A stretch of 13,641 bases of DNA. Origin: an archaeon. GTDB taxonomy: Archaea > Nanobdellota > Nanobdellia > Woesearchaeales > JAGVOV01. This document shows, in pieces, positions 5,810 to 6,909 of the stretch (its first letter is position 1; each line of letters begins with the position of its first letter). The position numbers were made by a program, and so were the translations under genes. The notes beneath the pieces are model-generated. The model did not search any database. It worked only from the letters and a program-made list of their open reading frames with translations, and was not told the origin of the DNA. The stretch is from the NCBI GenBank assembly GCA_020052545.1, contig JAGVOV010000066.1, forward strand, positions 1 to 13,641, given 5' to 3'.

Positions 5810-6805
5810 TTACACCAGTATCTTGATGATATCAACGACGCGGCAGCTGTAGCCCCATTCGTTGTCATACCATCCCATTACCTTAACAAAATTACCGTCC
5901 ATCACCATTGTCAACAATGAATCAAATATGCAGCTGTGGCTGTTGCCTACGATATCTACACTCACTATCGGATCTTCAGTATATTCTATTATGCCCTTAA
6001 GATGATAGCCTGCGACGTTCTTGAACAAGGCATTAATCTCCTCTTTTGTGGTGTTCCTCTTTAGCTGGCAGACGAAATCTGTTATCGACCCGTCTGGCAC
6101 CGGAACCCTGAGCGATAAACCATCAAGCTTCCCCTTGAGCTCTGGAATCACTTCAGCGACAGCTTTCGCTGCTCCCGTTGTTGTTGGGATTATTGAAAGC
6201 GCTGCGCTCCTTGCTCTCCTCAAGTCTTTGTGAGGCGCGTCGACAAGCCTTTGGTCTGCAGTATAAGCATGTGTTGTGGTCATGAAGCCATGGACAATGC
6301 CGAGATTATCATTCAGGACTTTCACCATCGGAGCCAAACAATTTGTTGTGCAGCTCGCGTTGCTTATTATATGATGCTTGCTCTTGTCATATAAGTGTTC
6401 ATTCACGCCCTTGACAACAGAGAAATCTGGATTCTCTGCCGGCGCTGAGATAAGGACTTTCTTCGCTCCTGCTTTCAGATGCTTCCCAGCATCATCATGC
6501 TTCGTGAAAAAGCCTGTGCTTTCTACAACAACATCTATGTTCAAAGCATGCCAAGGAAGCTTCTCCGGGTCCTTCTCCGCAAAGACCTTTACTGTCTTGC
6601 CTTCTATGATGAGGCTGTCCGGGGTATATGTCACATTCAAGCGAGCATGCTTGTGCACAGAGTCATATTTCAGGAGATGGGCCAATGTCTTTGTGTCTGT
6701 TATGTCGTTTATCGCGACCCATTCTATATCTGGATCATGCCAGCCTGCCTGCAGGACTTGTCTTCCGATCCTTCCAAAACCATTAATGGCGACCCTTGTT
6801 GTCAT
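5810..6805 (-). CDS. gap: Type I (bacterial-type) glyceraldehyde-3-phosphate dehydrogenase
   Basis: This 331-residue enzyme reversibly oxidises glyceraldehyde 3-phosphate to 1,3-bisphosphoglycerate in glycolysis and gluconeogenesis. The N-terminal Rossmann motif is INGFGRIGR (7-15), and Asp34 in AINDIT indicates preference for NAD over NADP. The active site is [12 protein letters not shown] (148-159), with catalytic Cys152 and the partner His179 in TTTHAYT. The C-terminal WYDNEWGYS (312-320) is the family signature. Most archaea use the distantly related type II enzyme or ferredoxin-linked enzymes, so a type I enzyme implies horizontal acquisition, as known for some haloarchaea. A stop codon immediately precedes the ATG, and a strong Shine-Dalgarno sequence AGGTGA (6811-6816) lies five bases upstream, unlike the leaderless neighbours. 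That sequence also contains the stop of an upstream 31-codon ORF. Confidence 0.97.
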
Positions 6806-6810
6806 TTATA

Positions 6811-6816
6811 TCACCT
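6811..6816 (-). promoter_or_regulatory. Shine-Dalgarno site of GAPDH overlapping the upstream ORF stop
   Basis: Read on the minus strand this is AGGTGA, five bases before the GAPDH ATG. Its TGA is also the stop codon of the preceding 31-codon ORF. The arrangement allows termination-reinitiation coupling. All three frames across this leader stop 8, 12 or 16 bases before the GAPDH start. Confidence 0.7.
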
Positions 6817-6836
6817 ATTCAATGGCCAGGAAATCC

Positions 6837-6884
6837 TTGATTTCCGCTGCCTTTGATTTCCGCTGCCTTTGATTTCCGCTGCCT
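6837..6884. repeat. Three tandem copies of a 16-bp repeat
   Basis: The unit TTGATTTCCGCTGCCT occurs three times without mismatch at 6837-6852, 6853-6868 and 6869-6884, followed by a partial unit. It lies inside the upstream ORF of GAPDH. Since 16 is not a multiple of three, each copy is read in a different frame, and a change in copy number would shift the ORF frame. It is probably prone to replication slippage. Confidence 0.95.
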
Positions 6885-6909
6885 TGATAGCTACTCTTAC
6901 TGTCATTCT

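Follow-up and report, generated by a model that had tools for sequence, protein, structure and literature searches.

The 31-codon open reading frame (ORF) that precedes the GAPDH gene in the window, by which we mean the whole 13,641-nt stretch of archaeal DNA analyzed here, probably arose as a target duplication through the activity of a small palindromic mobile element. This view of the ORF, called the stub below, is suggested by an arrangement in which a host sequence (X1), the element, and a second copy of the host sequence (X2) follow one another, because the same arrangement recurs at many other copies of the element and because one such insertion, in the GAPDH gene of another genome (G163), can be set beside 13 related genomes in which the site is empty. 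Our preferred reading, to which we assign a probability of roughly 85%, is that the element inserted into GAPDH and duplicated the upstream host sequence, after which the two copies diverged and a tandem repeat formed.

The repeated start of GAPDH

The window is contig C115 of G000, a 1.1-Mb metagenome-assembled genome (192 contigs, 87% complete) in which GAPDH gave a single match. The ORF of the gene is uninterrupted downstream of X2, and the closest named relatives of its product are those of Nanoarchaeota (79% identity) and Candidatus Woesearchaeota (75% identity), beside an 82% GAPDH homolog, P0003; the relatives searched included no further genome of the window's family. The stub, which the sequence-only reading had placed at 6811–6906 of the minus strand, lies exactly there, and two other details of that reading are directly visible in the DNA: GGTGATA precedes the ATGs of both the stub and GAPDH, and the TGA of the stub (6813–6811) falls inside AGGTGA, the ribosome-binding site of GAPDH, 5 nt before the GAPDH ATG at 6805. 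GGTGAT by itself is an ordinary archaeal ribosome-binding site. The alignment of the two starts, however, covers 33 columns, from GGTGATA to ATYAA, with one gap, and of 2000 sequences shuffled by dinucleotide from the upstream DNA, 3 attain its score. The likeness of the two starts is therefore more than chance, and the stub does contain a genuine second copy of the GAPDH start, as had been proposed. The accompanying argument, that the differences are mainly synonymous third-position changes and hence mark two diverged coding copies, is weak: among the 24 shared coding bases, five of the seven differences occupy third positions (four synonymous, one causing a K/N exchange), with P = 0.045 under random placement.

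The reading of the stub beyond the repeated start as GAPDH, with IKGSGN resembling INGFGR, was abandoned because the dispersed core described below was found there. The end of the stub was likewise rejected as a GAPDH C-terminus: among 120 GAPDH homologs, that of the window included, a terminal E is seen in one, and FLA is absent from the last 14 residues of them all. As for a conserved leader peptide, a first reading of the upstream DNA at 70 GAPDH loci (46 besides the window's own and 24 others, some of them one genome under two names and one with 28 nt of upstream DNA) disclosed no stub; the one in G163 surfaced later via the element search. Inside the stub, the hairpin GGAAATC-AAG-GATTTCC lies in the last copy of a perfect tandem repeat (Table 1), whose 16-bp unit occurs elsewhere in the same genome with three mismatches at best.

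Farther upstream, a putative original promoter block of GAPDH resembles positions C81:4072–4165 of genome G316 (70% identity over 92 nt; E = 0.007, calculated for one genome). In G316 the promoter-like block runs straight into GAPDH without a stub, and relative to it the window has ~140 nt extra between block and gene. The element and the duplicated start cover most of this excess, and ~32 nt (6916–6947) do not fit; the latter, situated on the minus strand between the old GAGGTG and the ribosome-binding site of the stub, contain a TTG-started ORF of nine codons. Ahead of GAPDH, the window (6948–7039, minus strand) and the loci L037, L121, L124, L131, and L134, the last being that of G316, have similar sequence, TTCCCCAnTGnTAATAAA and after it a T/A-rich box, which might possibly represent a conserved promoter or regulator site. 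A sigma-70 promoter scan was set aside as uninformative for an archaeon.

Elsewhere in the window, a short membrane-protein-like ORF (MHKHAKVPEKKPEEHIHFDWVLLAGIFFVALVMLLVIIDLFF; 5678–5805, minus strand) begins right after the GAPDH stop codon and extends into the end of the convergent thrS gene. Two overlapping ORFs with similar sequences (1478–2623 and 2613–3755, plus strand) have the look of tandem paralogs, and presumably resemble FAD-dependent (geranylgeranyl-reductase-like) proteins.

Table 1. Features of the GAPDH locus in the window.
Feature	Positions	Strand	Basis
Intact GAPDH, 331 aa	5810..6805	minus	Pfam Gp_dh_N and Gp_dh_C
X2, GAPDH start now used, GGTGATATAA-ATGACAACAAGGGTCGCCATTAA	6783..6815	minus	alignment to X1; GAPDH ORF intact
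Stub ORF, 31 codons, MTVRVAIKAAEIKGSGNQRQRKSRISWPLNR and stop	6811..6906	minus	runs from X1 through the element to a stop in the GAPDH ribosome-binding site
X′, arm that approximately complements the X1 end, CCATTGAATAG	6815..6825	minus	read by eye
Element core hairpin, GGC AGC GGAAATC AAG GATTTCC TG GCC	6824..6851	minus	covariance model R1, 45.9 bits (this copy is 1 of 33 training rows)
Perfect 16-bp tandem repeat, 3.1 copies, the repeated 5′ half of the element core	6837..6885	minus	unit present elsewhere in the genome only with 3 mismatches
X1, probable duplicate of the old GAPDH start, GGTGATAGA-ATGACAGTAAGAGTAGCTATCAA	6884..6915	minus	alignment to X2; X1-element-X2 layout as in other copies
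Putative original GAPDH promoter block, TAATAAACATTTAAAAA ... AAAAAAGAGGTG	6948..7039	minus	likeness to G316, from which a promoter function would follow

A dispersed hairpin and the host repeats around it

The 3′ half of the stub is a copy of a dispersed, covarying hairpin, GGCAGCGNAAAYC-NNN-GRTTTNCTGGYC, and the core shared by the copies has the consensus GGC AGC GNAAAYC NNN GRTTTNC TG GYC. When 352 genomes of the order were searched at the DNA level, without a model, for the leader (6806–7079), the same 25–40 bases were repeatedly matched at unrelated places, with a best E of 2e-7. Among six places inspected with their flanks, one was a tRNA intron, one preceded another ORF, and others adjoined tRNA genes. 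The core pattern, with up to three mismatches allowed, was found at 47 places in 33 of the 352 genomes, and a reversed control was found at none. Pair 8-22 takes all four Watson-Crick forms in 33 distinct cores (CG 14, GC 12, AU 6, UA 1), and standard pairs account for 96.7% of the pair cells; four of five structure measures were reached by none of 500 shuffles, and the fifth, the number of pair types, by 87. The covarying stem suggests that the core works as folded single-stranded DNA or RNA.

The covariance model, trained on 33 rows that include the window copy and had been collected by means of a pattern resembling the core in the window, gave matches in 153 of the 352 genomes at E ≤ 0.05, where ~18 chance matches are expected, and in 69 at a best E ≤ 1e-4, with 21 candidates scored per genome. 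From a sample of the phylum, whose share of genomes from outside the order is unstated, 40 of 279 genomes had matches at E ≤ 0.001, 39 belonging to the same order and one to the same class. Two neighboring model matches (E = 2.6e-4) are located at C42:69–98 and 201–230 of G458, a genome of the same class that is not marked as of the same order. The window's own genome has a second copy, at C145:1363–1389, which interrupts a tRNA-Glu(CTC) gene as part of its intron (L207). Genome G304 contains five copies (L216–L220) with longer shared flanks, as if a longer unit had been amplified. At the gathering score, Rfam gave no match in the window and tRNA alone at 20 element loci, and its best weak match at 6700–7100 had an E of 9; viral contigs contained no exact match of the core pattern, and a literature search, conducted mostly at title level and for the most part outside subscription journals, found no description of the core.

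Flanks were compared for 110 copies including that of the window, which comprise model matches from 60 regions (64 matches, less one that was partial and one that was the second, weak match of a locus), 46 of the 47 pattern places (the other being a repeat of an identical sequence), and two copies found by BLAST. Class proportions among these copies are biased because the 60 regions were hand-picked in favor of strong matches and element-rich genomes. Many copies show the layout X1 - GG core CC - X′ - loop - X2 - GG, where X2 repeats X1 and X′ is complementary to X1. An X1/X2 repeat that ends at the core GG was detected with a score of at least 8 in 45 of the 110 copies, against 2.6 expected from mispaired upstream and downstream flanks, and with a score of at least 12 in 20 copies, against 0.35 expected; the remaining 65 copies have no such repeat at a score of 8 or more, and some of the short repeats are A-rich runs. 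The longest repeat, with 53 identical bases out of 53, is located at the start of a short-chain dehydrogenase (SDR) gene in G348; at uS10 of G025, 23 of 23 bases are identical. The ungapped repeat of the window copy scores just 4 owing to the divergence between its X1 and X2 and to a single missing base. The outer X1/X′ stem reached a score of 5 or more in 37 of the 110 copies (6.8 in mispaired controls), though in none of the 14 tRNA-intron copies. A hairpin 3′ of the core, with a score of at least 8, was present in 46 of 109 copies (7.6 in shuffles), one copy having been skipped for its short flanks.

The targets are frequently conserved genes. ARAGORN placed 14 of the 110 copies within tRNA introns, with some isotype calls that are unreliable, and six more (L159, L161, L168, L187, L246, and L266) were classed as such by eye; moreover, a tRNA starts within 25 nt downstream of the core, in both orientations, in at least 12 copies. 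Six copies (L160, L162, L179, L230, L233, and L265) repeat what is apparently one gene end, which in L230, L233, and L265 is, on the opposite strand, the C-terminus of ribosomal protein uS10; Pfam S10 was confirmed in both of the loci tested, L230 and L233. Copies at or near gene starts involve ribosomal protein P1/L12 (in two genomes), S12, S28e, an S4-domain protein, a ThrRS-like protein of which the TGS domain alone was matched, a PPDK-domain enzyme, and GAPDH. A further copy (L199, G007:C37) lies in frame within a reverse transcriptase gene of 427 codons (RVT_1), and open frames pass through the element also in the long frames of L183, L209, and L152, L199 being the only one identified as a gene.

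Insertion into GAPDH and the origin of the stub

GAPDH of G163 consists of ATGATTAATGCAGCAATCAAC, then the core, then GTGGTAAATGTAGCAATCAAT-GG of the intact gene, and when it is aligned with 13 related genomes, all lacking the insert, the insertion is seen to be precise and 93 nt long; the promoter in G153 is nearly the same as that of G163. This insertion is independent of the one in the window and is found at the same place of GAPDH, the window's insertion point being the corresponding one, before the glycine of AIN-G. In G084 (L251), 30 nt separate the end of the core from the start of GAPDH, and X2 is the ribosome-binding site. An empty GAPDH site has so far been seen for the G163 insertion alone. 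The sequence-only reading had named, as evidence that would refute it, close relatives that keep the flanks and lack the MTVRVAI codons. G316, with a similar promoter flank and no stub, and the 13 uninserted relatives of G163 come near to this, but none of them is a close relative of the window.

We infer that the window copy arose in the same way as the other copies. The element would have inserted directly ahead of the glycine codon's GG in M..RVAIN-G, and the host sequence upstream of the site, that is, the ribosome-binding site and the first seven codons with the ATG included, would have been duplicated. The left copy, X1, would have kept the old promoter side and become the stub, while the right copy, X2, would have become the start of the intact GAPDH gene; X1 and X2 would then have diverged, and the 5′ half of the element would have been tandemly repeated.

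A different origin had been put forward together with the discovery of the stub, namely, that it is a relic of gene replacement, the remnant of an older and diverged GAPDH. That both starts encode MTxRVAI would agree with such a history, as would the third-position excess mentioned above, but the window's genome, at its 87% completeness, has one GAPDH, and none of 135 loci (two of which are the window itself; median length 4.8 kb) gave a second GAPDH match. Past codon 7, moreover, the stub is made up of the dispersed element that separates the two starts, without further GAPDH coding homology, and similar stub layouts exist at an SDR gene, tRNAs, and uS10, so a replaced GAPDH as the source of the stub is not upheld and seems highly improbable. 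The dispersal of the element bears equally on the idea that the similarity is accidental or that the start was simply duplicated in tandem on the spot: the constraint on ribosome-binding sites raises similarity, and the 16-bp repeats indicate local slippage at the site, but few shuffles attain the alignment score, and the DNA between the starts belongs to the family that the pattern search detected in 33 genomes, which speaks against a local duplication in its pure form. We consider this idea to have almost no chance of being correct.

Enzymes that might mobilize the element were sought by comparing 25 element-rich with 25 element-free genomes, richness being counted from matches at E ≤ 0.05, weak ones included. 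Y1 transposase was present in 15 of the element-rich and 10 of the element-free genomes, which is no clear link, and neither reverse transcriptase (8 and 8 genomes) nor tyrosine integrase (22 and 22 genomes) showed one, so that none of the three clearly tracks the element. No integrase was found in the window's own genome, and no autonomous parent of the element was found among the Y1 transposase, reverse transcriptase, and integrase families. A broader hypothesis, which we advance tentatively and with the odds somewhat against it, is that one family of folded, self-spreading hairpins is a source of tRNA introns and of tRNA-end and gene-start duplications in the order. Such a family would insert at the GG of conserved genes, keep the gene whole by target duplication or, in tRNAs, by BHB splicing, and move as a single-stranded intermediate, DNA or RNA, along an as yet undescribed route.

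Possible present function and relation to known elements

Whatever its origin, the stub might now serve as a regulatory leader of GAPDH, a role that is compatible with the insertion of a mobile element and could be true on top of it. One form of this idea is an RNA switch formed by the core, in which X′ would alternate between two partners, X1, whereby the core hairpin is closed, and X2, whereby the ribosome-binding site is masked; another is that the stub encodes a leader peptide coupled to GAPDH by termination-reinitiation. The frame of the stub is open through the element and stops shortly before the GAPDH start in the window, the stub ORF of G163 stops directly before the restart GTG, and that of G348 stops 2 nt past the restart ATG. 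Since the stubs stop so close to the restart codons, termination-reinitiation is possible, and ribosomes may read the stub and restart at GAPDH. The predicted fold of the leader (z = -2.28; 6 of 200 shuffles fold as well) places the GGTGAT of GAPDH in a stem, and the frequent hairpin downstream of the core, as well as the position of several copies just before the starts of GAPDH, ribosomal protein P1/L12, and the TGS-domain (ThrRS-like) protein, would also be in line with regulation. However, a switch makes little sense at other sites where the core resides, namely, within the introns or at the ends of tRNAs, on the strand opposite uS10 at its 3′ end, and within ORFs, and the 13 relatives of G163 manage GAPDH without the element. 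A regulatory leader is, accordingly, a possibility that we regard as doubtful.

It is also conceivable that the insert is a BHB-type intron that the tRNA splicing endonuclease would cut from the GAPDH mRNA, thereby joining X1 to the native glycine codon. In a test of the 110 copies, 3 of which were skipped for short flanks, 13 of 19 tRNA-intron copies scored at least 12 of 14 pairs (6 of the 20 tRNA-intron copies having been classed by eye), but just 2 of the 88 other copies did so, and the scores of the copies in the window, G163, and G348 are 11, 10, and 10, respectively. These scores make it unlikely that the window copy is spliced out as a BHB intron, and we give very little credence to such an intron in the GAPDH mRNA.

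The element is best described as small, palindromic, and mobile, linked to tRNA introns, and unusual in that its footprint preserves the target gene. MITEs and palindromes of the REP/IS200 type are non-autonomous, dispersed, and hairpin-forming, and the Rickettsia palindromic elements (RPE) have RNA genes among their insertion sites. The present element is MITE-like in its target-site duplication of variable length, seen in the 45 copies with X1/X2 repeats, whereas shared terminal inverted repeats beyond the core, which MITEs would have, were not noticed in an informal look; it is unlike the REP/IS200 type in that Y1 transposase does not clearly track copy number. RPE are described as short palindromic mobile elements located in frame in coding genes (PMC10969869), and the core likewise passes in frame, without stops, through the ORFs named above. 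By that description rather than by sequence, it departs from RPE in its archaeal host, its 28-nt core with a near-fixed AGC/TG internal loop, the variable length of the host duplication, the target-complementary arm, and the recurrent choice of conserved targets. In Thermoproteales, very similar introns are reported to have transposed among different tRNA genes, at canonical and other positions, by an unknown mechanism (Fujishima 2010, as cited in PMC4090602), whereas the core described here is also found at tRNA ends and in protein genes, with duplications of host sequence. A tRNA-Thr gene of Caldiarchaeum is described as disrupted by an integrating element: a direct repeat of part of the target flanks the insert, on one side of which the gene remains complete, and an intron has been gained (PMC3293823). 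That case is similar in its direct repeats of gene fragments and its connection with introns, but the element is 1.87 kb long and has a putative recombinase, while the inserts here are roughly 50–100 nt. A general survey (Rogers and Bendich 2025, PMC11782384), whose abstract mentions no element like the core, reports that 213 introns have direct repeats of 4–30 bp at their borders or close by and interprets these as footprints of insertion.

How introns are acquired by the tRNA genes of archaea is not settled, and their large-scale transposition has been reported with its mechanism unknown (PMC4090602). Because the core occurs in protein genes, where the duplication of the target can be read, as well as in tRNA introns, the footprint of its movement is open to study. 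A tiny element can thereby enter conserved genes such as those of GAPDH, ribosomal proteins, and tRNAs and leave them intact, and its insertions create short upstream ORFs that may later become regulators.
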